This document shows positions 157-42,370 of a DNA stretch of 46,301 bases, piece after piece. The DNA is from Candidatus Cloacimonadota bacterium (GTDB taxonomy: Bacteria > Cloacimonadota > Cloacimonadia > Cloacimonadales > Cloacimonadaceae), in contig JAKOXG010000021.1 of assembly GCA_029781115.1 (NCBI GenBank), positions 1-46,301 of the forward strand. The letters run 5' to 3'. Below the pieces are notes generated by a model. The model was not told where the DNA came from and made no database searches. It saw nothing but the letters and a program-made list of their open reading frames with translations. Each line of letters opens with the position of its first letter. The first letter of the stretch is position 1. The position numbers and the translations under genes are program-made.

Positions 157-207
157 CACTAAAAACTAACAAAAACTGTCCGGCTTTTTCAGTACGGCAC
201 ACGCAGC

Positions 208-238
208 CCTAACACCTAACACCTACAACCTAACACCT
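208..238. repeat. Telomere-like heptad array
   Basis: Short degenerate tandem array of the 7-mer CCTAACA with an imperfect unit. The same heptads recur at 4268-4290, 14771-14793, 14901-14940, 29357-29386, 29497-29525, 41842-41871, 42066-42117 and 42312-42370. Confidence 0.7.
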
Positions 239-252
239 TGCCAAAGGCATCC

Positions 253-372
253 CTCACTATATACACTGACGATGTTGCTCCGACCTCAAAAAACCGAGTG
301 AACCAAGCTCGTAACTGCCTGCATATAAAAGGCATACAAAAGGGTCAAATATTAACCCGGTTCTGCCGAAAT
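253..372 (+). repeat. Dispersed ~120-nt element, copy 1 (possible structured RNA)
   Basis: It begins with a 21-nt block (253-273) that is identical at 29036-29056. AAGCTCGTAACT (305-316) and CAAATATT are also shared with that copy. Between conserved blocks the sequence differs but can still pair: GCCT/AGGC (317-320 with 330-333) here corresponds to ACCT/AGGT in the other copy. GGGT/ACCC (342-345 with 355-358) is a further possible stem. No ORF is conserved between the copies. The function is unknown. Confidence 0.5.
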
Positions 373-402
373 AGAAATACCTGGTGAAGGGTATCAATCC
401 CC

Positions 403-837
403 GTACGGGCGGTCGCTGAACCGCCGCTGGTACACACATGCTCGCTGATGTGATGCCGTATGCCTGTATGGTCGCTTGCCATAGCGACCCTATAACGGCA
501 CTCACCCGAGTGCCGATGTAAACATCCGCTCCAGTATGGTCGCTTGCCACAGCGACCTTATAACGGCACTCCTACGAGTGCTGATGGGGAAAATCTGCTC
601 CAGTATGGTCGCTTGCCATAGCGACCTTATAACGGCACTCGGATGAGTGCCGATGGAAAACATCCGCTCCAGTATGGTCGCTTGCCACAGCGACCTTATA
701 ACGGCACTCACCCGAGTGCCGATGGAAAACATCCGCTGCTCCAACGAGCAGCGGCAAATGGGTCGCTATGGCAAGCGACCATACTTTATGGCGGTTTAGC
801 AGCCGTCCGTACAGGTCGCTATGGCAAGCGACCATAC
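403..837. repeat. REP-like palindrome array, left flank of the RAYT gene
   Basis: Starts with a block (403-465) that is repeated at 3940-4003, followed by four tandem units of about 69 bp starting at 466, 534, 603 and 672. Each unit contains a hairpin with arms GGTCGCT/AGCGACC and loop TGCCAT or TGCCAC, then a hairpin with arms CGGCACTC/GAGTGCCG and a variable 4-nt loop (ACCC, CTAC, GGAT, ACCC). The last unit adds a third hairpin, CCGCTGCTC/GAGCAGCGG, and inverted copies of the first hairpin ending at 785 and 837. Short ORFs here only translate the repeat (SLWQAT, MVACHSD) and are not genes. The rest of 157-849 holds nothing else recognisable. Confidence 0.85.
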
Positions 838-849
838 AGGCGATCGACC

Positions 850-1515
850 CTACATCACCCCATCTTTCAGGTAAGTGCCCCTCCAATCCCGCCAGTCCTC
901 CACCAGATTTGCTTCTACCGGATTATTCACGATATATCCTATCACTCTACCCAAGCCGTCCGTATCTTTCACCAGGCTGTCATAGTTTTCCTTTTCCCAA
1001 AAGTTGCCCTTCCTGCCCAATACTCTGTTTATTGCAGTAGCTGTATATCTCTTCCAAGTATACACTATATGCGAGATGGAAAAGATGTTTCCATCTTCCT
1101 GAACCAGTGGATTTATCAGGACATGTACATGGTTTGGCATGATGCAGTAGCAGAGCAAGGTGTAGCGAACGCCATCAAACTTATGAAATGATTCCTGAAT
1201 GATCTCACGAATCCCGTCCTGATGAAGAATCTGTGGCACATCGGGAGATAGCCCAATAAGATTGTCAAACCAGTCGAAGAATCTTTTGTCCTTGTCCTTC
1301 AATCTGTCTGCTCTTTCATCTTGTGGCAGGTCTTCCAGTTCTGCATGCCAATCCTTTATCCGTTGTTGGTAGTCAGCCATCACCTTATCAGGTAGGGTGA
1401 ATTTTAATCTATAGGTGATGAAGATGGGTTTTTCATGGTGATACATGTGGGGTAAACGTCTGGCCTTGAAGAAGCTTTTCATGTTTTCATTGGAGAGATT
1501 ATCACGGGTGTTCAT
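850..1515 (-). CDS. REP-associated tyrosine transposase (RAYT, Y1_Tnp / IS200-like)
   Basis: The 221-residue protein has the HUH signature of Y1 transposases in IMPNHVHVLI (H129 and H131). It is followed by a downstream candidate catalytic tyrosine in KRYTATAINR (about Y157), NFWEKENYD (171-179) and YIVNNPVEANLVEDW (194-208), all typical of the RAYT branch. RAYTs are known to bind and cut REP hairpins in single-stranded DNA and are thought to disperse them. The gene sits exactly between two REP-like arrays (403-837 and 1531-1708), the classic REPtron arrangement. The ATG at 1515 is preceded by AGGA on the minus strand. The frame is intact. A domesticated cellular role is also possible for this family. 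Confidence 0.88.
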   Translation of the reverse strand: MNTRDNLSNENMKSFFKARRLPHMYHHEKPIFITYRLKFTLPDKVMADYQQRIKDWHAELEDLPQDERADRLKDKDKRFFDWFDNLIGLSPDVPQILHQDGIREIIQESFHKFDGVRYTLLCYCIMPNHVHVLINPLVQEDGNIFSISHIVYTWKRYTATAINRVLGRKGNFWEKENYDSLVKDTDGLGRVIGYIVNNPVEANLVEDWRDWRGTYLKDGVM

Positions 1516-1530
1516 GGTTTCATCCTATTT

Positions 1531-1708
1531 GTATGGTCGCTTGCCATAGCGACCTTAACGGCACTCGGATGAGTGCCGATGTAAACATCCGCCCCAGTAT
1601 GGTCGCTTGCCATAGCGACCTTAACGGCACTCGGATGAGTGCCGATGCAAAACATCCGCTGCTCCGATGAGCAGCGGCAACTAGGGTCGCTATGGCAAGC
1701 GACCATAC
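1531..1708. repeat. REP-like palindrome array, right flank of the RAYT gene
   Basis: Two tandem units carry arms GGTCGCT/AGCGACC and CGGCACTC/GAGTGCCG (4-nt loop GGAT in both). A CCGCTGCTC/GAGCAGCGG hairpin (loop CGAT) follows, then an inverted copy of the first hairpin that ends at 1708. The spacing is slightly shorter than in the left array (CCTTAACGG instead of CCTTATAACGG). The array lies immediately upstream of the RAYT start codon. Confidence 0.85.
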
Positions 1709-1885
1709 AGGACAACCCCTTGTTTGCTCTACCAAGTTTCATCTTTCTAAGTCCTCTCTTCTTGCTTTACCTAATCTGCTTTAAGGGCATTGTTTTGCAA
1801 GAGGGCTTACCTGTCAAATACTTTCTTAGGATGCGTCTACGCTGTAAAGCCAGTGCAGCGACGATCAACTCGTTTGTGGTCACAA
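1709..1885. other. Intergenic stretch with a possible coding remnant
   Basis: This 177-bp segment lies between two REP-like arrays and has no complete gene. On the minus strand it encodes an open stretch of about 38 residues ending at a stop (TTNELIVAALALQRRRILRKY and so on), which looks protein-like. It may be the tail of a gene disrupted by the arrays. I do not recognise it. Confidence 0.3.
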
Positions 1886-2050
1886 GTATGGTCGCTTGCC
1901 ACAGCGACCTTATAACGGCACTCGCTTGAGTGCCGATGTAAACATCCGCTGCTCCAACGAGCAGCGGCAAATGGGTCGCTATGGCAAGCGACCATACTTT
2001 ATGGTGGTTCAGCGACCACCCGTACAGGTCGCTATGGCAAGCGACCATAC
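1886..2050. repeat. REP-like palindrome array at the 3' side of the BNR-protein gene
   Basis: One full set of the three hairpins is present: GGTCGCT/AGCGACC, CGGCACTC/GAGTGCCG with loop GCTT, and CCGCTGCTC/GAGCAGCGG with loop CAAC. Two inverted copies of the first hairpin follow, separated by a GGTGGTTCAGCGACCACC palindrome. It ends 17 bp from the stop codon of the gene at 2068-3369. Confidence 0.8.
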
Positions 2051-2067: not shown

Positions 2068-3369
2068 TCACCTCACCAATATCACCTTCCGTGTGGCTGA
2101 ATACTTCCCCGATCGCAATTTACACAAATAGACCCCGGCAACTGCCGTTTGACCGGAATCCGTCTTGCCATCCCAAGTGATCTCATGCTCACCAATCGGT
2201 AGCAATTCGTTGTCCTTCAAAGTCCGAATCAGTTGTCCTCTGATATTGTAGACCGCTACGGTGGTTGGACTGTGATCGGTCTGAAACTTAAATGTGGTGC
2301 CCATACCACTCTTAAATGGATTGGGATAGCAGGTCAATTCTGGATTGACAGCCGGAATCACCGGATCGTCATTGGTTACGGTTGTATCAGTAAAGGTGCC
2401 TAAAGCACCACCCCAGCCGACAAATAAACCGCCATTACCCCTCATATCAAATTTGCAGATTAAGCCATAGATATCGGGTAATCTTACCACTTCTTGCAAA
2501 GTATTGTTGTTGTTAACTTTCCAAATACATTTATATCCTTTATGAGCTACAACAGCATATAATTTATTATTAGTCCAAGCTAGCCTAGAGACCGCACTAT
2601 TTGGAAAATTTAAAAACGAATTCCAGGTTTGGCCACCATCAGTTGACCGATAGAGCATGTCCGTTTCACTGGTGGAGGCATAAAATACATTTGGTGAAGC
2701 AATTTTCACGTTCCAAAATCCACCAGAATTATAGATATGAGATAATTGCCAAGTTTGGCCACCATCTTGCGAAACATGACAATTCATTAAATCGTTGGCG
2801 TCATAGCGCCCTGCCGTTATTAATATTGTTTCCCCTACAACATCAAAGCCCATATATCCACCTTCACCAGCTTCTACAAACTTAACAGTTCTCCAAGTTA
2901 ACCCACCATCATAAGTTTTTTTCAGACCACCATTAGTCAGAATATAGCCAATCCGCGGTGAAATGAATATAATTTTCATTAAACTGCTGCCTGATGATGA
3001 GCTAATTCCTGGTCTATTAGATGCATCTATCCAGGTTTGACCACCATCTGTGGTTCGATATAAACCATAGTTATGTCCACAAATCCAACCAGTTTGGGAA
3101 TCAATCATCCATAGACCATTAACACAAAAGGATGATTGAACACTGGGCACCTCAACAGATTGCCAAGTTTGACCAGCGTCATTAGATTTCATGAACCTAA
3201 ATAAAGTTGTGCTGGTCCAACCAGCGACATAGTAATTATTTTGGTCTAAAATTTGGCAAGCTTCCAGATTGGAATTATGCCAAGTTATGTGGTAGTTTTG
3301 GGCACTAACTTGGCCAACCATCAGGACGATAAAAACGGTTATCCAGCAGATTAAAGCAACCTTATTCAC
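2068..3369 (-). CDS. Secreted BNR/Ycf48-like repeat protein with C-terminal sorting tail
   Basis: The 433-residue product begins with a hydrophobic signal peptide (about 1-23, ending VSAQ). Five or more Asp-box/BNR-type motifs (DAGQTW, TTDGGQTW, YDGGLTW, QDGGQTW, STDGGQTW) predict a beta-propeller like Ycf48/sortilin domains. The last ~90 residues (CYPNPFKSG, VYNIRGQLIRTL, GVYLCKL, RKVILVR) form the FlgD-Ig-like/Por-type sorting tail seen on many proteins in this window. Export through a type IX-like route to the cell surface is inferred. The start is GTG at 3369, chosen because AAGGAGAT lies about 6 nt upstream and the signal peptide begins there. Its specific substrate is unknown. Confidence 0.85.
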   Translation of the reverse strand: MNKVALICWITVFIVLMVGQVSAQNYHITWHNSNLEACQILDQNNYYVAGWTSTTLFRFMKSNDAGQTWQSVEVPSVQSSFCVNGLWMIDSQTGWICGHNYGLYRTTDGGQTWIDASNRPGISSSSGSSLMKIIFISPRIGYILTNGGLKKTYDGGLTWRTVKFVEAGEGGYMGFDVVGETILITAGRYDANDLMNCHVSQDGGQTWQLSHIYNSGGFWNVKIASPNVFYASTSETDMLYRSTDGGQTWNSFLNFPNSAVSRLAWTNNKLYAVVAHKGYKCIWKVNNNNTLQEVVRLPDIYGLICKFDMRGNGGLFVGWGGALGTFTDTTVTNDDPVIPAVNPELTCYPNPFKSGMGTTFKFQTDHSPTTVAVYNIRGQLIRTLKDNELLPIGEHEITWDGKTDSGQTAVAGVYLCKLRSGKYSATRKVILVR

Positions 3370-3939
3370 AGGTTATCTCCTTTTAAAAATCATTTACTTG
3401 GTTTACATTATGAAAAGCTTTCTGATACTGAGCACTACACTTACCAACACACAGATGGTAAGGCAACCCGAAAGCGGGCAAAATCAGATTCTATCGGATT
3501 CTCTCTTTCGGGCAAGGGAAAACACACTATGCAGATAAAGCGGGGAGAGATCAAAGCACAGCCCGGGAGCTGCGTTTCTTAGGTGTTTGCAACTTTGATC
3601 TTTTCTTCGATTTCCGCCATCTTTCTCCATGCGAGCCATCGTAAGTAAAAGCAAAGATTTCGTCAAGCCTTATTTTGGCTTTGTTTGGTTCATGTTCATT
3701 TATGTTGGGTAAAATGATTGCCAACTACCGGCACTACTAAATCAGAATAATGCAATGTTCCTTGCCCACTTCTTCCTTGCTTAGCCTCCCGGTGATTCCC
3801 CGGAGCCTCCCGGGAAAAACCCGAGTATCTCCACGGCATCACCGGGCGGGTAAGTAAGGGCCGACTGCGTCGTCCAGTGGTCAGTTGCCAGTAGTCAGTA
3901 GTCAATCGCTGCGCTGGCTTCGGAGATGTGTGCGCGTTT
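3370..3939. other. Intergenic region upstream of the BNR protein
   Basis: No gene is recognisable; small ORFs here have no protein-like character. On the minus strand the 5' leader of the BNR-protein gene can form a hairpin with 7-bp arms (CTTACCA/TGGTAAG, 3440-3462) and a CCCG/CGGG hairpin beside it. About 3787-3860 is a GC-rich dispersed repeat that recurs inverted at about 41482-41546. About 3876-3905 contains CAGTGGTCAGTTGCCAGTAG-like short-period repeats. Confidence 0.5.
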
Positions 3940-4116
3940 GTACGGGCGGTCGCTGAACCGCCGCTGCTACACACACGCTCGCTGATGTGATGCCGTACGC
4001 CTGTATGGTCGCTTGCCATAGCGACCTTATAACGGCACTCGTTTGAGTGCCGATGGAAGATATCCGCTGCTCCAGCAAGCAGCGGCAAATGGGTCGCTAT
4101 GGGCAAGCGACCATAC
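3940..4116. repeat. REP-like composite array
   Basis: It repeats the 403-517 segment almost exactly: the GTACGGGCGGTCGCTGAACC block, the CTCGCTGATGTGATGCCGTA block, then the GGTCGCT/AGCGACC and CGGCACTC/GAGTGCCG hairpins (loop GTTT). A CCGCTGCTC/AAGCAGCGG hairpin and an inverted GGTCGCT copy follow. The final copy has an extra G in its loop. Confidence 0.8.
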
Positions 4117-4261
4117 AGGCCAGCAGAACATGGTCGGTTCAGCGACCGACCCTACAGGAGCGACCATACATGACGATCATCATCCGTGTAATTCGTGGGA
4201 AAAAACTTGCTATCTGTGGGCTCGATCTACGCAAATAACACGCGCATCCCCGAAGCGAGCG

Positions 4262-4305
4262 TCAGCTCTAACACCTAAAACCTAAAACCTGCAGCGAAGC
4301 TGCCC
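4262..4305 (-). terminator. Possible terminator of the hydrogenase operon
   Basis: Just past the stop of the phosphatase gene, the minus strand reads GCAGC-TTC-GCTGC followed by the T-rich complement of the heptad array (AGGTTTTAGGTTTTAGG). A 5-bp stem with a 3-nt loop is weak, so intrinsic termination here is only a suggestion. The same hairpin-plus-heptad arrangement occurs elsewhere in the window. Confidence 0.3.
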
Positions 4306-12777: not shown

Positions 12778-12960
12778 AGCCGGCGGTCGCCGAAGCGTCG
12801 CATGTAGGGTCGCTCGCTGGACCGACCATTTACTGTTGCTCATGGAGCAACGGATATTTCCATCGGCACTCGAACGAGTGCCGTCATAGGTGCAGGCTGC
12901 GCCAGCTGCGGCGGTATGGCAACCGCCGGCTACAAAGCGGGTCGCTATGGCTGGAGCAAG
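12778..12960. repeat. Degenerate REP-like composite
   Basis: Contains diverged copies of the hairpin words used elsewhere: CGGCGGTCGCCG, GGTCGCTCGCTGGACCGACC, GTTGCTC/GAGCAAC, CGGCACTC-GAAC-GAGTGCCG, GGCGGTATGGCAACCGCC and the start of a GGTCGCTATGG copy. The last word is broken, which suggests an old or truncated insertion. Confidence 0.7.
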
Positions 12961-12971
12961 CATCCCCGATT

Positions 12972-13287
12972 CCACCACCAAAAAAACCGGCCTGTTTTTG
13001 CAAAAAACAACCTTGACAAAAAGATAAAGGGGATAATACTGACAACGAGCTTGGTCTTAGCCCCCTTGGGGGAGAGGATCAAATAATATAGATTTGTCAT
13101 CCACCGGCTGTTGACCAAAGCAAAAGTTCTTTGTAAGCTTTGACATTCAGCCACGAGCATGCAGAGCCAAAATGCTGAGCGGTTAGACTGAATCTGGGTG
13201 GTCCTGCTCCTAACGTCGGTTTTCAAGTGGCATATTATAGCCACCCGAACGACTGAAAGCTGAGAGTCTTTCCTTGAGGAGGATAAG
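12972..13287 (+). promoter_or_regulatory. Conserved promoter and structured leader, copy A
   Basis: 12972-13217 is nearly identical to 38073-38319, which lies in front of a paralogous gene. TTGACA (13013-13018) and TAATAC (13034-13039, 15-bp spacer) form a plausible promoter. The transcribed part can fold into nested stems ATTCAG/CTGAAT (13145-13150 with 13188-13193) and AGCAT/ATGCT (13156-13160 with 13172-13176). A CCCCC/GGGGG hairpin precedes them, and a last hairpin (GTGGC/GCCAC) lies just before the ribosome binding site GGAGGA. Leader function is inferred from conservation and position; a plain segmental duplication is the alternative. Confidence 0.55.
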
Positions 13288-14667
13288 ATGAAGAAGTATC
13301 TTACACTACTGACCTTGATGGCACTATCATTGAGTGCTGTCTGTGCCCAAACCTGGATCAAACGACTGCCTATGGACGGGCTTCCAGATTGGGATGTTAA
13401 TCGCTCTAAGATGTGCAACGTCATCGCGGCAATTGGTGGCGGCTATATAGCCCAAGGCTATAAGACAAACTCAACTGAAGATGGCTGGGCATGGAATGAT
13501 TTTAACATACTCTGGAAACTGGATGAAAACGGCAATGTCCTGCAGCGAACAACAATAGACGTTGAAGAAGTTATCGTAAGTATGGTATCCAATGGGGTTG
13601 ACAGGTATTATTTCCTGGCACAAGGTGCTCATGCTGGCGAAACACTGTTGTTTGTCCTTGATACCGGACTTAACCTTCTGGACACCTACAACTTTAGGAT
13701 AACCAACGGCTACAGTATTACCTTGTATGACATGCAATATGCTGAAGATGGCTTGGTCTTTGTTAGCCAAGGCTGGCAACCCATGGCACTTAAAACTGAT
13801 TTCCAGTTCAATGTGATTTGGCAGAGTGAGATCTTTGGAGTAGGGGATGGCGTTTCAATTGAACCATATGAAGATGGCTGGATATCTATATCCTCAGGAA
13901 TGTATTTTGCGTACATATCGTCAGTAGGCGATACGCTTTGGACCTACCACGCTACGGTAGACAATAATATAGGATTCTATGATTGTAAAGTGTCCTCTGA
14001 TAGTAGGGTCGTTTTATTAGGATTTTATAGTCTATTGGAAATGAACATGTTAGACCGTTCACTACATCAGTTTGCCAAAGATACTCCTGGTGGATTTGAC
14101 ATCAACAGAAAAAGGTCTATCGATATCCTACCCAATGGCAATATCGTGTATACTGGCAGAGCTGATACAGGCGAGATTCTCCATTGCTACAGCCCTGATG
14201 GAGTGCATCAATGGAGCAGAGCGTATAACACTCACGCTTGGGCTAAATACTTTGGGACAGGCTCAAAGAACCTACTGGTTATGCCGGATGGCAGTATACT
14301 CTTCCTGTTGCATGATGGCTACGGAACATACTTATATTTGATCAAGACCGATGCTGAGGGCAACGTGGTGGCTAATGATGACCCTGTTACACCCGCACCC
14401 GTGGCGTCTATTACTGCTTTTCCTCAACCGGCAAGCGACAGATTGACGTTAGCCATCAAAAGTGAACTGCCGGGCGATCTGAGCTATAGTATTTATAATA
14501 TCAAAGGGCAGAAGCTCCATACCGCTGCAATCACTGGACATCAAAGAGAACAAAGCATCGATCTGGATGCAAAGATCATTGGGAACCTGCCCAATGGCAT
14601 CTATCTGGTAAATCTGAAACAAAACAATAGGACTATCGCCTCATGTAAGGCGGTGATAGTAAAATAG
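13288..14667 (+). CDS. Secreted beta-propeller-like protein with sorting tail (paralogue A)
   Basis: A 459-residue product with signal peptide (about 1-20, SAVCAQ). The body has PQQ/WD-like alternating motifs (ILWKLDENGNVL, VIWQSEIF, ILHCYSPDGVHQWSRAY, YLIKTDAEGNVV) that suggest a beta-propeller of unknown ligand. The tail (about 375-459: FPQPASDRL, YNIKGQKLH, GIYLVNLKQ) is a sorting domain. ATG at 13288 follows GAGGAGGATAAG. The N-terminal ~90 residues and a block near residues 285-320 are nearly identical to the protein at 38389-39777, while the middle and tail differ, a mosaic pattern pointing to recombination between the copies. The ligand and role are unknown. Confidence 0.85.
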   Translation: MKKYLTLLTLMALSLSAVCAQTWIKRLPMDGLPDWDVNRSKMCNVIAAIGGGYIAQGYKTNSTEDGWAWNDFNILWKLDENGNVLQRTTIDVEEVIVSMVSNGVDRYYFLAQGAHAGETLLFVLDTGLNLLDTYNFRITNGYSITLYDMQYAEDGLVFVSQGWQPMALKTDFQFNVIWQSEIFGVGDGVSIEPYEDGWISISSGMYFAYISSVGDTLWTYHATVDNNIGFYDCKVSSDSRVVLLGFYSLLEMNMLDRSLHQFAKDTPGGFDINRKRSIDILPNGNIVYTGRADTGEILHCYSPDGVHQWSRAYNTHAWAKYFGTGSKNLLVMPDGSILFLLHDGYGTYLYLIKTDAEGNVVANDDPVTPAPVASITAFPQPASDRLTLAIKSELPGDLSYSIYNIKGQKLHTAAITGHQREQSIDLDAKIIGNLPNGIYLVNLKQNNRTIASCKAVIVK

Positions 14668-14683
14668 TATCAAGTGACTATCC

Positions 14684-14940
14684 TTGTACGGGCGCTTGCC
14701 ATGGCGCCGCGACTTCACACGGTCTCGCTCAACAAAGATAGCACGCGCATCCCCGAAACCAGCGCAGCTGCTAACACCTAACACCTAACACCTGCGGCGA
14801 AGCCGCACCGACCTTGTACGGGCGCTTGCCATAGCGCCGCAACTTCACACGGTCTCGCTCAACAAAGATAGCACGCGCATCCCCGAAACCAGCGCAGCTG
14901 CTAACACCTAACACCTAACACCTAAAACCTAAAACCTAAC
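14684..14940. repeat. Tandem duplication of a ~130-bp composite repeat
   Basis: Two near-identical units (14684-14813 and 14814-14940) each contain TTGTACGGGCGCTTGCCAT, a GGTCTCGCTCAAC block, GCACGCGCATCCCCGAAACC, and a CCTAACA/CCTAAAA heptad array. The first unit ends with a GCGGC-GAA-GCCGC hairpin. A third copy is at 29407-29525. Confidence 0.8.
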
Positions 14941-15585
14941 CGACACAGTCGGTCCCTACCATTTTAGTAGGAAATCCTCACCCACCTCCGGTACCGGAAA
15001 ACCCAGGCCAAAAATCAACAATTGATCTTATTATACCACACAGCAACTTATAACCCCTATCAAAGACACTCCTCAAATGCCGATTCCATGCGGCTTGCCA
15101 ACTCCGCCCCTGCTGCTCTCCTGCTCCTCGAGTAAGCAAGCAGTAGAAAGTCAGGCAGTTAGGAGGCAGAGCCAAGGGGAAGAAAAAGCTTCCTGCGGAG
15201 GGTGGCCGGTTGGGCTCAAAAGTCAATATTTGCAGTGGTGGCCGAAATGAGCAAATAAAATAATGCCCAAAATGAGCACGGATTTCGGGGAGAATCAGAG
15301 GTAAAAAGTTTCACGAATTTGGCAAATATCAGCCTGCTTCCATAGTTACCGGTGGAAGGGCAGTGGCGATAAACCATCATCTCTATATTTCCAAGGAGCT
15401 TGTCAGAGGGAGCAGTTTTGTCTCAGGGAGATGTTTCCTTTCGCCTTTTATGATGATAATCAGATATAGGCTGTCTTTTTCTCTTGACATTCCAAGGCTG
15501 GTAAAAAGGATGGTAATCAAAGAGAAATTATCAATTGTGGGTATTGTGTGTCCATGTCACGCATGCCCCAATAAAGAGGTTTTTA
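14941..15585. other. Intergenic region upstream of mreB
   Basis: I see no convincing gene; an 82-residue minus-strand frame (14978-15226) has no signal peptide, motif or good ribosome site. A TTGACA at 15484-15489 could be the -35 box of the mre operon, without a clear -10 partner. The leader ends in AGAGGT before the mreB start. Structured RNA cannot be excluded for 15060-15230. Confidence 0.35.
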
Positions 15586-29035: not shown

Positions 29036-29158
29036 CTCACTATATACACTGACGATCTCACCTTGTGGATAAAAATCCACAAAATAAAGCTCGTAACTAC
29101 CTGTAAATAGAGGTGATACAAAGGGGGCAAATATTGTCACCTTTCGGGCGTTATTAAA
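29036..29158 (+). repeat. Dispersed ~120-nt element, copy 2 (possible structured RNA)
   Basis: It shares the 21-nt opening block, AAGCTCGTAACT and CAAATATT with 253-372. A GTGGAT-AAAA-ATCCAC hairpin and an ACCT/AGGT stem (29099-29102 with 29111-29114) occupy positions where copy 1 has different sequence. It follows the terminator at 28963-28996 by 40 bp. Confidence 0.5.
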
Positions 29159-29530
29159 ATACCGGCGCAGCCGCCCCATTCGTGTAATTCGTGGGAAACA
29201 TCAAACTGCGTTTGATTGCGGCGGTTTGGTAACCTCCGGCTACAGGTGGGTCGCTATGGCAAGCGACCATACAGGGACGAGACTGTGTGAAAACCCTTTC
29301 TGTAGCTGGTCTTGCTTTTGCTCAGAGCATTCGCATCTCTAAATAAAGCGCAGCTGCTAACACCTAACGCCTAACACCTAAAACCTACGGCGAAGCCGCT
29401 CCAACCTTGTACGGGCGCTTGCCATAGCGTCGCAACTTCACACGGTCTCGCTCAACGAAGATAGCACGCGCATCCCCGAAACAAGCGCAGCTGCTAACAA
29501 CTAACACCTTAAACCTAACACCTAACCAAC
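29159..29530. repeat. Composite repeat block
   Basis: 29159-29390 is a copy of the ~240-bp unit found twice at 41872-42342. It contains CATTCGTGTAATTCGTGG, an ATCAAAC-TGC-GTTTGAT hairpin, a GGTCGCTATGGCAAGCGACC hairpin, a CCCTTTCTGTAGCTGGTCTT block and heptads. 29407-29525 is a copy of the 130-bp unit at 14684-14940. There is no gene. Confidence 0.8.
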
Positions 29531-32846: not shown

Positions 32847-35243
32847 ATGAAGAGATATATATCACTGGTAGTGATCCTGTTGCCACTGATCTGTTCAGGT
32901 ATTACCAGACGAGTGGCACTTGATGGCAGCCAAACATACACATCTATCCAGGCTGCCATCAATGACGCTGTCAGTGGCGACATGATCCTGGTTTATCCGG
33001 GACGCTATCTGGAAAACCTGGACCTTTCCAATAAGAGCGATCTGATCCTGACTTCTCTGGAATACACCACAGCAGATACCAGCTATATCAGTAGCACAAT
33101 CATTGATGGGAGCAATGGCAACACCTCCACCATTCTTTGCTATGAGAATGTCCTTGATTGCGAGATCAGAGGGTTTACCATCACCGGTGGTAGAGGTTAC
33201 GACTATTTCAATGGAAACAGCCCGCGGCAGATATTCGGGGGAGGGCTTTTTATCTACTCAAACTGTGATCTTAACTTGTTCAATCTAAACATCTGCAACA
33301 ATCGCTCAAGCTGGGGTGGTGGAATAATGATTTGTGAATCAAATACTGTCTTTATGTCCAAGGTCAATATTTATAATAACTTTGCCAGATATGTGGGAGG
33401 TGGTTTGGCAACAGGAAGCAGTATATATAGCATCCCTCAAATCATTTTTGACCAGGTACATAGATGCAGCATCTATAACAACTTTGCTCAATGGGGATTG
33501 GATATACATTGGCACTACACCCACGGCGGAACAGTTGAGGTGTATTTAAATAAGTTTACCATACCCCAATGGGAAAGGTATTATGCCTCTTATTTTGATA
33601 TGAGGGTTCTTACTAACCCTTATACCGTATTTGACGTGCAAGAGGCGTATCTACAGCCTGTTGATGCGGATTTATATGTCAATCCCGACGGCGACGATGA
33701 TAACGATGGCCTGAGTGCCGCCACTGCCCTGAAAACGCCCTCAATAGCAATGCAAAGGATAGCCTCCAATCCGGATAGTCCCAAAACGGTGCACCTCGCA
33801 GCGGGTATCCATCACAATCTCTTTGGTGGTGAATACCTCCCCATCTCAATCAAGGATTATTGCATTCTGCAAGGCGTTTCCCAAGCAGCCACCCGCTTGT
33901 ATGGCGAGAACATGATGGAAGGAACGGGAGTTATCAGCATGGGGATAGAGAGTTGTGGGATGACGATGCGAGATCTATCCATCACGACTATCAATGCCTC
34001 AGCAGTGTTTTCTTGGGATATGTATGACTTTCTGATGGAAAATGTATGTATAGAGAACTGCACCGTTGATATTTGGATATCCTCAATAGGACTGTATAAA
34101 GCCACTTTCGCGCTTAACAATGTAACAGTGCGCAATAACCTGGCTCATTACGCATTTAACGGGCTGGAGCTCAGGGGCTCAAATATCAACTTGGACAATG
34201 TCTTGGTAATTAACAATCAAACGGAAAGCCTCCCGTCTGACTGGTTCAACCAGGGAGGTGGATGCTTTGAAACTCGTGTCAGTGGTACTATGACCATCCG
34301 CAATAGCAAATTCATCAATAACACCCACTATTCTGTGGAAGGATGGGACAACATTAGGTTTTCAGGCACAGGCGATGAATATATGGGTGTAGTAGTAGAC
34401 GTTGATAACTGCCTCTTTGCCTCCAATGCCACCTATGGAGGCGCAAGGGACATCTGTACGTTCTTTCTGGGAAGCGTGAATTTTACCAATTGTACCTTTG
34501 CCAACTATATGGGAACCTATCCCAGTTCTCTGCTTATTTCTGGTACCGACTCATGCAGATTTGTAAATTGTATCTTTGCCAACAGCAGTGCCCAATACGA
34601 GATGTTAATTGGTGTTGACACATATGTGGAAAACTGTCTGTTTTTGCGCTCTGACAACTTTGCTTACTTGGGCGATGGTGTAACGCTTGATTGGGGCAAC
34701 AACAATATCACGGGAGTGGATCCCTTGTTTTCCGGGACAGATCCCTGCCAACCAGATCACTATTACCTGTATGCGGATGACGTGAATGGTTACTCTCCCG
34801 CGATTGATGCAGGGACGATGGACCCCAGTATTTTACCTCCGGGTTATATTATCCCACCCCATGATGCCTTTGGCTTTAAGCGGGTTTATGGAGATGGGAT
34901 AGATATAGGCTGCTATGAAGCACCAGGCTATACCGACAGTGATGAAGAGATTATCCAGCCCGCAGGCATCCACAAACTGGAAGCCTGGCCCAATCCCTTC
35001 AAGGTTTTTACCAATATCAAAGTCAACTTGGAAAAAGCCCAGAGTGCCAGTATCACTATCTACAACATCAAAGGGCAGAAGGTAAAGACCATCGCACTTG
35101 ATCCGCATAAAGGCGGCGAGCAGCATACATATTGGGATGGCAGGGATGCCGATAACAGGCAATGCTCCAGCGGGATTTACCTGATCAATCTGCAAGTAAA
35201 TGGCAGAAATGTGAGCAGTAAGAAGGTGACGCTGGTAAGGTAG
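32847..35243 (+). CDS. Secreted DUF1565-like beta-helix protein with sorting tail
   Basis: 798 residues. Signal peptide (1-18), then the segment VALDGSQTYTSIQAAINDA...VYPGRYLENL, which opens many right-handed beta-helix (pectate-lyase-like, DUF1565) proteins. A second such start occurs near residue 275 (YVNPDGDDDNDGLSAATALKT), so there are two beta-helix modules. The tail (~708-798) has WPNPFKVFTNIKV, YNIKGQKVKTIALD and WDGRDADNRQ. It is about 95% identical in DNA to the tail of the next beta-helix gene. The role is probably surface or extracellular polysaccharide binding; no catalytic residues could be assigned. GGAG precedes the ATG. Confidence 0.86.
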   Translation: MKRYISLVVILLPLICSGITRRVALDGSQTYTSIQAAINDAVSGDMILVYPGRYLENLDLSNKSDLILTSLEYTTADTSYISSTIIDGSNGNTSTILCYENVLDCEIRGFTITGGRGYDYFNGNSPRQIFGGGLFIYSNCDLNLFNLNICNNRSSWGGGIMICESNTVFMSKVNIYNNFARYVGGGLATGSSIYSIPQIIFDQVHRCSIYNNFAQWGLDIHWHYTHGGTVEVYLNKFTIPQWERYYASYFDMRVLTNPYTVFDVQEAYLQPVDADLYVNPDGDDDNDGLSAATALKTPSIAMQRIASNPDSPKTVHLAAGIHHNLFGGEYLPISIKDYCILQGVSQAATRLYGENMMEGTGVISMGIESCGMTMRDLSITTINASAVFSWDMYDFLMENVCIENCTVDIWISSIGLYKATFALNNVTVRNNLAHYAFNGLELRGSNINLDNVLVINNQTESLPSDWFNQGGGCFETRVSGTMTIRNSKFINNTHYSVEGWDNIRFSGTGDEYMGVVVDVDNCLFASNATYGGARDICTFFLGSVNFTNCTFANYMGTYPSSLLISGTDSCRFVNCIFANSSAQYEMLIGVDTYVENCLFLRSDNFAYLGDGVTLDWGNNNITGVDPLFSGTDPCQPDHYYLYADDVNGYSPAIDAGTMDPSILPPGYIIPPHDAFGFKRVYGDGIDIGCYEAPGYTDSDEEIIQPAGIHKLEAWPNPFKVFTNIKVNLEKAQSASITIYNIKGQKVKTIALDPHKGGEQHTYWDGRDADNRQCSSGIYLINLQVNGRNVSSKKVTLVR

Positions 35244-35420
35244 CCGGCGCTCGCCGAAGCGCCGCAATCAAGCGGGGCTTGATGCTTACAACTGCGATGA
35301 AGCTGCTTTATGCGACATTTTAGTGGGTAGAAGCTTTGAGAAAGAATGAGTTGAGTAGCAGGCAGTGCCTGCAGGCGGCGCTACGGCGAGCGCCGGCTAC
35401 GGGTGGGTCGCTTTGGCAAG
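35244..35420. repeat. Composite repeat following the beta-helix gene
   Basis: Starts directly at the stop codon with GCCGGCGCTCGCCGAAGCGC, then an ATCAAGC-GGG-GCTTGAT hairpin, a CATTTTAGTGGG block and a GGTCGCTTTGGCAAGCGACC hairpin. A sister copy lies at about 41571-41760. Confidence 0.75.
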
Positions 35421-35599
35421 CGACCATACTGTGGCGGTTAGGCAACCGCCCGTACAGTGGAGACGCAGAAGTTGGTAGTCATTCAGTAATCTGGAATGGC
35501 TTGGATAACTCCGGCAAAGCCTGTGCTTCAGGAGTATACTTCTACAAACTACGAACTTCCAAGACAAGTTTGGTTCAAAAAATGCTTCTGATGAAATAG
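35336..35599 (+). pseudogene. Orphan sorting-tail remnant interrupted by REP-like hairpins
   Basis: The 87-codon frame begins in repeat DNA (the translation LRRAPATGGSLWQATI is the palindromes). From about 35466 it becomes a true sorting tail: VGSHSVIWNGLDNSGKACAS, GVYFYKLRTS, KMLLMK. This is the last third of a tail whose protein body is gone. It looks like the 3' scar of a secreted-protein gene cut off by the repeat block. Confidence 0.65.
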
Positions 35600-38072: not shown

Positions 38073-38388
38073 CCACCACCAAAAAAACCTGCCTGTTTTT
38101 GCAAAAAACAACCTTGACAAAAAGATAAAGGGGATAATACTGACAGCGAGCTTGGTCTTAGCCCCCCTGGGGAGAGGATCAAATAATATAGATTTGTCAT
38201 CCACCGGCTGTTGATCAAAGCAGGAATGCCCATACCAAGCTTTGACATTCAGCCACGAGCATGCAGAGCCAAAATGCTGAGCGGTTAGACTGAATCTGGG
38301 TGGTTCTGCGCCTAACGTCTAAGAACAGTCGGCATACTATATGCCACTAACGCATCAGAACCTGAGGATTTTACCTAAGGAGGTGAAG
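38073..38388 (+). promoter_or_regulatory. Conserved promoter and structured leader, copy B
   Basis: Matches copy A (12972-13217) almost base for base to 38319. TTGACA (38114-38119) and TAATAC (38135-38140) are retained. The ATTCAG/CTGAAT stem (38247-38252 with 38290-38295) and its inner AGCAT/ATGCT stem are unchanged. The last hairpin has different bases but still pairs (GGCAT/ATGCC here, GTGGC/GCCAC in copy A). AAGGAGGTGAAG then leads into the gene. Confidence 0.55.
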
Positions 38389-39777
38389 ATGAAAAAGTCT
38401 CTTACACTACTGACCTTGATAGCATTATCATTGAGTGCTGTCTGTGCCCAAACCTGGATCAAACAATTGCCCATGGACGGTCTTCCAGATTGGGATGTTA
38501 ATCGCTCTAAGATGTGCAACGTCATCGCGGCAATTGGTGGCGGCTATATAGCCCAAGGCTACAAGACAAACTCAACTGAAGATGGCTGGGCATGGAATGA
38601 TTTTAACATACTCTGGAAACTTGATGAAGAGGGTAACGTCTTACAACGAACAACGATAGACAGGGAACAAACCATCGTAAGTATGGTATCCAATGGGGTT
38701 GACAGGTATTACTGCCTGGCTCAAGGTGCTCAGGGCGGTCTAACAATACTAATTGTCCTTGATCCCGGACTGAACCTACTTGAAACTTACTACTTTGAGA
38801 CAGTCAACGGCTACGGTATTACCTTGCATGACATGCAATATGCTGACGATGGCTTGGTCTTTGTTGGAAGAATAGGCTCGCAAGCTTTAGCAATCAAAAC
38901 TGACTTCCAATTCAATGTGATTTGGCAGAGCGAAATCTTCCCAAACAATAGCTCGGGATTTATAACCATTGAACCATACAATGATGGTTGGATCTGCTTA
39001 GGGAGAGGGATTTTTGCCTGTTTGACAAGTAATCTTGATACTTTGTGGATATATGATCCAGAGAATTATGTTACGAGCCTATTTGATTGCAGGGTATCGT
39101 CAAATAACGATATTTACTTACTTGGATACTATAAGCTATGGAAGATAAACTCAGGTGAGCAAAATCCCGAGTTAGTCGCTGATAACATACCCGCCTGCTA
39201 TGTGCTCTACGGCGACCGAGTGTCTTTAGATATCCTTCCAAATGGTAATATCGTGTATACTGGCAGAGCTGATACAGGCGAGATTCTCCATTGCTACAGT
39301 CCTGATGGAGTGCATCAATGGAGCAGATCATATGATACTAATATTTGGGCTACCTACCTTGGAACAGGTTCAAAGAATCTACTGGTTATGCCGGATGGCA
39401 GCATTCTCTTCCTGTTGCATGATCGCCCTGGAGCGTACTTATATTTGATCAAGACCGATGCTGAGGGCAACGTGGTAACAAATCAGGACCCATTGATCCC
39501 GGCACCACATACAAAGATAAGTCATTACCCGAACCCTGTGACAGATAGAGTTACTATCAAGTATGAAACAGAGCAGCCAAAGCGGAACCTGAAGGTCGAA
39601 CTGTACAACATTCGTGGGCAGAAATTGCTTTCTGTTCCGATCAACGATTGCGGTAACACCGGTGAAATTGAATTGGATCCCGCACTAATCCAATCTCAAA
39701 ACAGCGGAGTATACCTGTATGTGCTAAAGAATGGAAACCAAAAACTCGCCACTGGCAGAATGGCATTGATAAAATAA
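38389..39777 (+). CDS. Secreted beta-propeller-like protein with sorting tail (paralogue B)
   Basis: 462 residues from ATG 38389, chosen because AAGGAGGTGAAG precedes it and the signal peptide MKKSLTLLTLIALSLSAVCA starts there; an in-frame upstream ATG (38341) lacks both. The body resembles paralogue A at 13288 (NILWKLDEEGNVL, VIWQSEIF, LHCYSPDGVHQWSRS). The middle has diverged and the tail is of another subtype (YPNPVTDRVTIKY, YNIRGQKLL, SGVYLYVLKNG). The following gene starts 9 bp after its stop, so they probably share a transcript. The ligand is unknown. Confidence 0.85.
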   Translation: MKKSLTLLTLIALSLSAVCAQTWIKQLPMDGLPDWDVNRSKMCNVIAAIGGGYIAQGYKTNSTEDGWAWNDFNILWKLDEEGNVLQRTTIDREQTIVSMVSNGVDRYYCLAQGAQGGLTILIVLDPGLNLLETYYFETVNGYGITLHDMQYADDGLVFVGRIGSQALAIKTDFQFNVIWQSEIFPNNSSGFITIEPYNDGWICLGRGIFACLTSNLDTLWIYDPENYVTSLFDCRVSSNNDIYLLGYYKLWKINSGEQNPELVADNIPACYVLYGDRVSLDILPNGNIVYTGRADTGEILHCYSPDGVHQWSRSYDTNIWATYLGTGSKNLLVMPDGSILFLLHDRPGAYLYLIKTDAEGNVVTNQDPLIPAPHTKISHYPNPVTDRVTIKYETEQPKRNLKVELYNIRGQKLLSVPINDCGNTGEIELDPALIQSQNSGVYLYVLKNGNQKLATGRMALIK

Positions 39778-41481: not shown

Positions 41482-41800
41482 GGCGTGGAGATACTCGGGT
41501 TTTTTACGGGAGGCTCCGGGTAATATCCGGGCGGCTCAGTAAGGTAGGGTCGCTCGCTGGAGCGACCAAGTAGCCGGCGCTCGCCGAAGCGCCGCAATCA
41601 AGCGCAGCTTGATGCTTACAAATGCGGCGAAGCCGCTTTATACGACATTTTAGTGGGCATAAGCTTTGGGAAAGAGTGAGTTGGGTGGCATTCTGTGCCT
41701 GCTGGCGGCGCTACGGCGAGCGCCGGCTACAGGTGGGTCGCTATGGCAAGCGACCATACAGGGACGAGACTGTGTGAAGCAGCGGCGGTTAGGCGACCGC
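41482..41800. repeat. Mosaic of dispersed repeats after the FG-GAP gene
   Basis: 41482-41546 is an inverted relative of about 3787-3860 (GAGATACTCGGGTTTTTTAC, GGGAGGCTCCGGG). 41571-41760 is a copy of 35244-35420 with the ATCAAGC-GCA-GCTTGAT hairpin and the CATTTTAGTGGG block. GGTCGCTATGGCAAGCGACC and GCGGTTAGGCGACCGC hairpins follow. No gene. Confidence 0.75.
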
Positions 41801-41841
41801 CCGTACAGAAAGCACGCGCATCCCTAAACAAAGCGCAGCCG

Positions 41842-42370
41842 CTAACACCTAAAACCTAACGCCTAACACCTGCGGCGCAGCCGCCCCATTCGTGTAATCC
41901 GTGGAAAACATCAAACTGCGTTTGATTGCGGCGGTTTGGCAACCTCCGGCTACAGGTGGGTCGCTATGGCAAGCGACCATACAGGGACGAGACTGTGGGA
42001 ATACCCTTTCTGTAGCTGGTCTTGCTTTTGCTCAGAGTATTCGCATCTCTAAACAAAGCGCAGTCCCTAACACCTAACACCTAACGCCTAACACCTAACA
42101 CCTAACACCTAAAACCTGCGGCGCAGCCGCCCCATTCGTGTAATTCGTGGAAAACATCAAACTGCGTTTGATTGCGGCGGTTTGGCAACCTCCGGCTACA
42201 GGTGGGTCGCTATGGCAAGCGACCATACAGGGACGAGACTGTGGGAATACCCTTTCTGTAGCTGGTCTTGCTTTTGTTCAGAGCATTCGCATCTCTAAAC
42301 AAAGCGCAGCCCCTAACACCTAAAACCTAACGCCTAAAACCTGCGGCGTAGCCGCTAACACCTAAAACCT
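41842..42370. repeat. Tandem ~240-bp composite units with heptad arrays
   Basis: Two tandem units (41872-42117 and 42118-42342) each begin with a GCGGC-GCA-GCCGC hairpin, then CATTCGTGTAAT, an ATCAAAC-TGC-GTTTGAT hairpin, GGCGGTTTGGCAACCTCCGG, the GGTCGCT/AGCGACC hairpin and CCCTTTCTGTAGCTGG. Each ends in CCTAACA/CCTAACG/CCTAAAA heptads. The heptad tracts differ in length (about 7 and 4 units). A partial third copy and more heptads run to 42370. 42371-42519 has no recognisable structure. Confidence 0.85.

Follow-up and report, generated by a model that had tools for sequence, protein, structure and literature searches.

The question raised by this locus is whether a transposase gene that lies between two arrays of palindromes has spread those palindromes. 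The window is the whole stretch of DNA that was analyzed, 46,301 nucleotides of contig C19 (G000:C19:1-46301). The source genome (G000), from the little-studied phylum Cloacimonadota, contains 2.25 Mb in 22 contigs and is 99% complete. The gene (850 to 1515, minus strand) is an intact open reading frame of 221 amino acids and encodes a RAYT, or TnpA-REP, transposase of the HUH-Y1 type. Hairpin arrays flank it at 403 to 840 and 1530 to 2050, as the earlier note had described. We read the locus as a REPtron, a RAYT from the IS200/IS605-like HUH family together with the REP family that belongs to it, at a probability of roughly 85%. The same identity was proposed in that note. It is supported by the fold and motifs of the protein and, as far as sequence can carry it, by the hairpin anatomy, the GTAN feet, the dispersal, the class-specific flanks, the compensatory changes, one in-frame filled site, the purifying selection on the RAYT and the hairpins at other RAYT loci.

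The C19 RAYT contains the HUH motif N128-H129-V130-H131, W173 in the guide region and the catalytic Tyr194 within YIVNNP. A Pfam search retrieved Y1_Tnp (E=4.4e-5). An NCBIfam search retrieved REP_Tyr_transpos (E=2.5e-17) with 63.1 bits, under the NF047646 cut-off of 80, which is a database threshold and not a biological feature. Within the order, only some relatives pass it. A PDB sequence search gave 4er8 at E=0.2, which is a hint only, and the fold search was decisive. It used an AlphaFold model with 31 homologues as input (pLDDT 85); a single-sequence model (pLDDT 38) was dropped. The top PDB match was 4er8 (E=9e-8), the E. coli TnpA-REP (RAYT) in complex with a REP hairpin, and the ISDra2 and IS608 transposases came next. 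The catalytic residues (the HUH motif and Y194) are invariant across 31 relatives. Invariant or nearly invariant columns of the alignment include RxLPH, YCIMPNHxH, W173 and Y194 to N198. The dN/dS was 0.20 to 0.23, which indicates purifying selection on the RAYT.

The main hairpin is GTAT-GGTCGCT-tgccat-AGCGACC. It has stem-compensated relatives with the arms GGTCGGT, GGGCGGT, GGGCGCT, CGGCGCT and CGGCGGT. The REPs are palindromes of the 20- to 50-nt type with perfect or near-perfect stems. The window contained 109 perfect stems of at least 7 bp (nested forms counted) versus 28 to 31 in shuffles. The exact main hairpin is present in 72 copies in the genome, on most contigs, and in 0 copies in the backwards-read control. 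These counts rule out a chance origin. A stem-family search, in which the foot was not required, retrieved 30 hairpins from the window and 50 from 394 kb of contigs C10 and C20. It retrieved zero from shuffled sequence.

In 80 of 80 sampled family hairpins of the source genome, a GTA foot preceded the 6-bp core stem on its 5' side at a distance of 1 to 3 nt, with the strand picked by the foot and about 9% expected by chance. GTA is constant and base 4 is variable (GTAT 35, GTAC 25, GTAG 23, GTAA 2). This fourth base goes with the stem class. The loop is YGCYR, with G at position 2 in 81 of 82 and C at position 3 in 79 of 82. Surveys have described a GTAG foot that varies at its second and third bases, or GTGG (PMC3733652, PMC6006769). 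A change of the foot from GTAG to GTAC abolished cutting in Stenotrophomonas and shifted the cut to GA/GT in Marinomonas (PMC8266576).

REPs of the window also occur as parts of a composite unit. Four complete units, all on the plus strand, were found at 672 to 784, 1597 to 1708, 1886 to 1997 and 4003 to 4116. Each contains a REP, a second hairpin, a third hairpin and an inverted REP in fixed order. The unit at 672 to 784 consists of a GTAT-REP, the CGGCACTC hairpin, the CCGCTGCTC hairpin and an inverted REP ending in ATAC. The units are 108 to 114 nt long, and the feet of the end REPs point outward. Genome-wide, the first hairpin was present in 94 copies and the CGGCACTC and CCGCTGCTC hairpins in 12 and 7 (10 and 5 in the congener G002). 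A GTA foot was looked for on both strands of the latter two and was absent. Because they are footless and rare, these two hairpins are not equivalent to the REP. They are not REPs; together they make up the conserved core of a unit that has a REP at one end and an inverted REP at the other.

About 18 units from two species, some of them truncated, were aligned. The local stems were paired in 96.7% of cells, and 7 pairs had changed on both sides. That level of compensatory change was reached in 0 of 500 shuffles. The outer REP-iREP junction stem was paired in 92.8%, with 5 or 6 mismatches at two outer pairs. It is less well kept because the end REPs can differ in class. The comparison of the local hairpins with the junction (96.7% versus 92.8%) weakens the idea that selection keeps mainly the outer stem. 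Folding predictions for complete units as single-stranded DNA gave a three-way junction, with z near -12 for two units of the window and near -9 for a unit of G002 whose ends are unlike. The composite is thus a REPIN, or BIME, with a structured two-hairpin linker, and it probably moves as one piece. The fixed order of three hairpins given in the earlier note holds in the four complete units. Its contrast of this arrangement with a single REP or a BIME does not, since the unit is a BIME/REPIN in which two of the hairpins are footless.

Left of the gene, the array begins with a second-class REP, GTACG-GGCGGT-cgctga-ACCGCC, at 403 to 425 (plus strand). This class also flanks the second RAYT of the genome, on contig C20. 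It is followed at 466 to 668 (plus) by three tandem repeats of a REP and a CGGCACTC hairpin with a period of about 69 bp, which are truncated composite units. A REP with its GTAT foot at the right end lies at 814 to 837 (minus), beyond the complete unit. Right of the gene, another truncated unit (REP and CGGCACTC hairpin) lies at 1531 to 1592 (plus), directly 5' of the point where RAYT translation starts. In this leader (1515 to 1554), a REP hairpin, foot included, ends about 15 bases 5' of the start codon. The leader of the C20 RAYT likewise holds REPs, and self-regulation is possible. The right array ends with a REP at 2027 to 2050 (minus).

Further REPs are scattered through the window. A REP of the GTACG-GGCGGT class (3940 to 3962, plus) and one of the GTAG-GGTCGGT class (4132 to 4155, minus) lie on either side of the fourth complete unit. 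A degraded composite unit (12804 to 12888, minus) lies beside a REP of the GTAGC-CGGCGGT class (12909 to 12933, minus). A dispersed REP of the GTAT-GGTCGCT class was found at 29249 to 29272 (minus). A cluster of four REPs at 35240 to 35455 contains two GTAGC-CGGCGCT, one GTAT-GGTCGCT and one GTACG-GGCGGT. A cluster of seven occupies 41544 to 42228, partly inside a 246-bp tandem duplication. Perfect copies were present near 1886, 3940, 29225, 35400, 41530, 41940 and 42180, where the earlier note had placed recurrences of the palindromes. The one it cited near 12778 is imperfect and is accompanied by a CGGCACTC hairpin.

A strict foot-plus-stem pattern was counted over whole genomes, with a control of 0 or 1. 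It found 183 REPs in the source genome, 118 in G002, 166 in G005, 65 in G018 and 18 in G030. Only 12% of REPs lie inside open reading frames, though open reading frames (at least 150 amino acids) make up 84% of the sequence. Neighboring REPs no more than 250 bp apart were feet-outward in 14 cases and feet-inward in 2. On contig C4 of the source genome, a metallo-hydrolase gene contains a 57-bp in-frame stretch with a GTAT-REP. The G002 orthologue is uninterrupted; this is the sole filled/uninterrupted pair aligned at the base level, and about 25 of the 57 bp are non-REP. The cluster at 41544 to 42228 corresponds to 963 bp with seven REPs in the window versus a 208-bp REP-free gap in G005. Filled/empty pairs collected automatically between species were set aside, since most were driven by common dispersed repeats. 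Two such pairs (G002 C48 and G005 C32) were not claimed, as the alignment around the junction was poor.

A rival reading takes the hairpins chiefly for transcription terminators or RNA-stability elements that selection, and not transposition, has spread. Short T runs follow some hairpins, 5 terminator-like sites were found versus 1.5 expected, and REPs serve elsewhere as terminators or stabilizers (PMC6006769). Terminators, however, are not marked by a GTAN foot on one side only, outside the stem, nor by feet-outward pairs or a copy inside a gene, and an Rfam search of the first 4.5 kb gave no match. Terminators were rejected as the explanation on account of the foot, the pairing and the intragenic copy, and we regard them as very improbable.

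The source genome encodes a second intact RAYT (C20:41885-42547), and G002 encodes one (C45:30648-31310). The C19 RAYT shares 74% identity with each of them. Near the C19 RAYT, 12 of 13 REPs belong to the GTCGCT/TGCC class. Near the C20 RAYT, 0 of 12 do, and the classes there are GGCGGT and GGCGCT. The difference between the two flanks gave a Fisher p of 2.7e-6, with counts that are not independent, as they include tandem copies. The REPs near the G002 RAYT are of the GGCGCT class. In the source genome there is thus one RAYT per REP class, with two RAYTs and two flanking class sets. The leading classes in its sample were GTAT-GTCGCT (32 of 85) and GTAC-GGCGGT (22 of 85), both inflated by the inclusion of the two RAYT loci. 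The leading class in the G002 sample was GTAC-GGCGCT (26 of 88). The leading class matches the class that flanks the resident RAYT in both genomes.

An ordinary IS200/IS605 insertion sequence with the hairpins as its ends would have the same common HUH fold family, and subterminal hairpins and guide tetranucleotides are also shared (PMC6006769). The two RAYT copies of the source genome, at 74% identity, have no common element ends, and their flanking hairpins differ. There are about 90 hairpins per gene copy, and the IS200 model scored 13 bits on the C19 RAYT versus 63 bits for REP_Tyr_transpos. An ordinary IS200 element was rejected on these three points, and we give it next to no credence.

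By its NHVH and YIVNNP motifs, the C19 RAYT is a candidate member of subclass 2.4. It encodes W-E in place of the W-Q of that subclass (PMC6006769). The C20 and G002 copies encode W-Q, as do most relatives. In the E. coli protein, the region that corresponds to this residue pair makes contact with the guide; the relation of the pair to the foot of the C19 class is a correlation only.

The earlier note had held that the hairpins should not be equally common in close relatives without a RAYT, and the comparison came out divided. The RAYT-less congeners G001, G003 and G004 contained 0 REPs each by the strict pattern. G005, also a congener, is 99% complete and encodes no detectable RAYT or remnant, yet it contains the 166 REPs counted above. 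The counterparts there of the C19 RAYT flanks (window 202 to 452 and 1717 to 1857) enclose another gene, whose product has HATPase_c_4 and Fic-like_C domains. Perfect right arms made up 67% in G005 versus 83% (p=0.02). The C19 REP class was nearly absent (3 of 51), and no class was leading in the sample.

It is likely, though unproven, that G005 lost its RAYT, because E. coli provides a precedent, G002 contains a remnant, perfect right arms are fewer and the C19 class is near absent. Loss of the RAYT with persistence of the REPs has been documented in E. coli (PMC3733652, PMC8049555). It is also possible that the gene is missing from the G005 assembly. A fragment on G002:C53 is nearly identical to the C20 RAYT over the first 22 codons and the region upstream of them, and then breaks off; by its sequence it is a RAYT remnant. 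Over this stretch (L031:3886-4551 and L135 at about 3110 to 3210, G002:C53) the identity is about 97%, although the two genomes are 85 to 90% identical in orthologous stretches. Recent transfer or strong constraint, with truncation in G002 afterwards, may explain this.

The REPs of G005 support a reading in which the repeats are old and no longer moved by this RAYT. Recombination and gene conversion would keep them, and the RAYT, domesticated for another role, would sit in a repeat-rich spot by coincidence. At some sites the REP class differs between species, as expected of conversion, and a dN/dS of 0.2 is compatible with domestication. The match of the leading class to the resident RAYT in two genomes, with no leading class in G005, argues against it. 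So do the fewer perfect right arms of G005, which are expected after loss of the RAYT, and the in-frame REP stretch specific to one species. We consider this reading unlikely.

Other genomes were examined at 49 RAYT loci, mainly from FCB phyla (Bacteroidota, Ignavibacteriota and Neomarinimicrobiota). Hairpins with a GT[AG]N foot were present at 1.60 per kb within 700 bp of the RAYT, 0.11 per kb beyond 1.5 kb and 0.02 per kb in shuffled sequence. The family members G030 and G036 encode RAYTs that are 51 to 57% identical to the C19 RAYT, with similar REPs adjoining. More distant RAYTs have hairpins unrelated to those of the C19 locus.

Under the REPtron reading, the C19 RAYT probably spread these hairpins. 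A REP would fold into a hairpin when its strand is exposed, for example, as the lagging-strand template. The RAYT may be guided by the loop (YGCYR) together with the GTAN foot on the 5' side. Tyr194 would then cut beside the hairpin, and the strand would be transferred elsewhere. Binding, cutting and strand transfer are what the protein and its REPs lead us to infer. The outcome would be slow copying or movement of single REPs and of paired units (REPINs). The main such unit would be the 108- to 114-nt REPIN, in which a REP and an inverted REP, feet outward, surround two footless hairpins. The points against the REPtron reading are the 166 REPs of G005 without a RAYT, the RAYT score under the NCBIfam trusted cut-off, the nonindependence of tandem copies and the single aligned pair.

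The earlier note had stressed that the locus lies outside the proteobacteria. RAYT/REP systems there have already been published (PMC6006769, PMC3733652). RAYT subclass 2.4 occurs with REPs in Cyanobacteria, Bacteroidetes and other phyla (PMC6006769), and GTAG repeats occur in Cyanobacteria, Chloroflexi and the PVC phyla (PMC3733652). The locus resembles TnpA-REP subclass 2.4 (Bertels group 4), which is scattered over Bacteroidetes and other phyla, in its NHVH motif, YIxNNP and flanking GT[AG]-footed hairpins. It differs in that its gene is without an internal REP and its feet are GTAT, GTAC or GTAG and not GT[AG]G (PMC6006769). Like the REPtrons of E. coli, Stenotrophomonas and Marinomonas, it has a RAYT between cognate REP/iREP pairs that are dispersed and intergenic. 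Unlike these three, it has a foot base 4 that varies with the stem class and a two-hairpin linker. Its stems are perfect and without the bulge of the E. coli REPtron and BIMEs, as in group 3 (PMC8266576).

The REPINs of P. fluorescens SBW25 are likewise two inverted REPs with a hairpin fold that form one mobile unit, which is the presumed behavior here. In contrast to them, the spacer is a conserved hairpin pair, and the end REPs may differ in class (PMC3116915). Repeats in P. putida and P. fluorescens also join a REP to an unrelated stem-loop; there, the REP is degenerate and the copies number in the hundreds. Those repeats have been described as TIRs of degenerate GTAG-1 units, whereas intact REPs bound the two-hairpin core at both ends here (PMC3733652). 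A partial literature search found no publication on REPs in Cloacimonadota. What sets this variant apart is its linker of two hairpins and a fourth foot base that goes with the class, with GTAT and GTAC feet.

The locus extends REPtrons to Cloacimonadota, and the arrangement is present around most of the 49 related RAYT genes. One genome in which two RAYT paralogues have different REP classes, sister species that have or lack a RAYT and REP-free congeners form a useful natural experiment on how RAYTs move REPs and pick cut sites. From the variable fourth foot base, a direct prediction follows for the IS608-style guide model. As a tentative conjecture, the fourth guide base (GTAT, GTAC or GTAG) may have diversified in this RAYT lineage together with the stem class and the resident RAYT. 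Guides would then differ between paralogues of one genome, as presumably would the cut sites, and the conserved two-hairpin core of the three-way-junction REPIN might have a function of its own.

Other repeats were also found. The 246-bp tandem duplication (41842 to 42333) is 97% identical and carries a REP, and a third copy lies at 29132 to 29377 (85%). A second dispersed repeat at 3765 to 3861 is about 97 bp long, GC-rich and unrelated to REPs, with about 40 copies in G005. Two stretches 25 kb apart (13269 to 14399 and 38370 to 39506) are duplicates with 86 to 91% identity. Period-7 tandem tracts (CTAACAC/CTAAAAC/CTAACGC) lie at 209 to 244, 4268 to 4303, 14771 to 14943, 29357 to 29529 and 41842 to 42356. 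In 21 of 37 sampled cases they lay within 300 bp of a REP, versus 5.7% of the sequence; the true enrichment is smaller, because tracts and REPs are both intergenic. The period-7 tracts of G005 are of the CTCACAA type.
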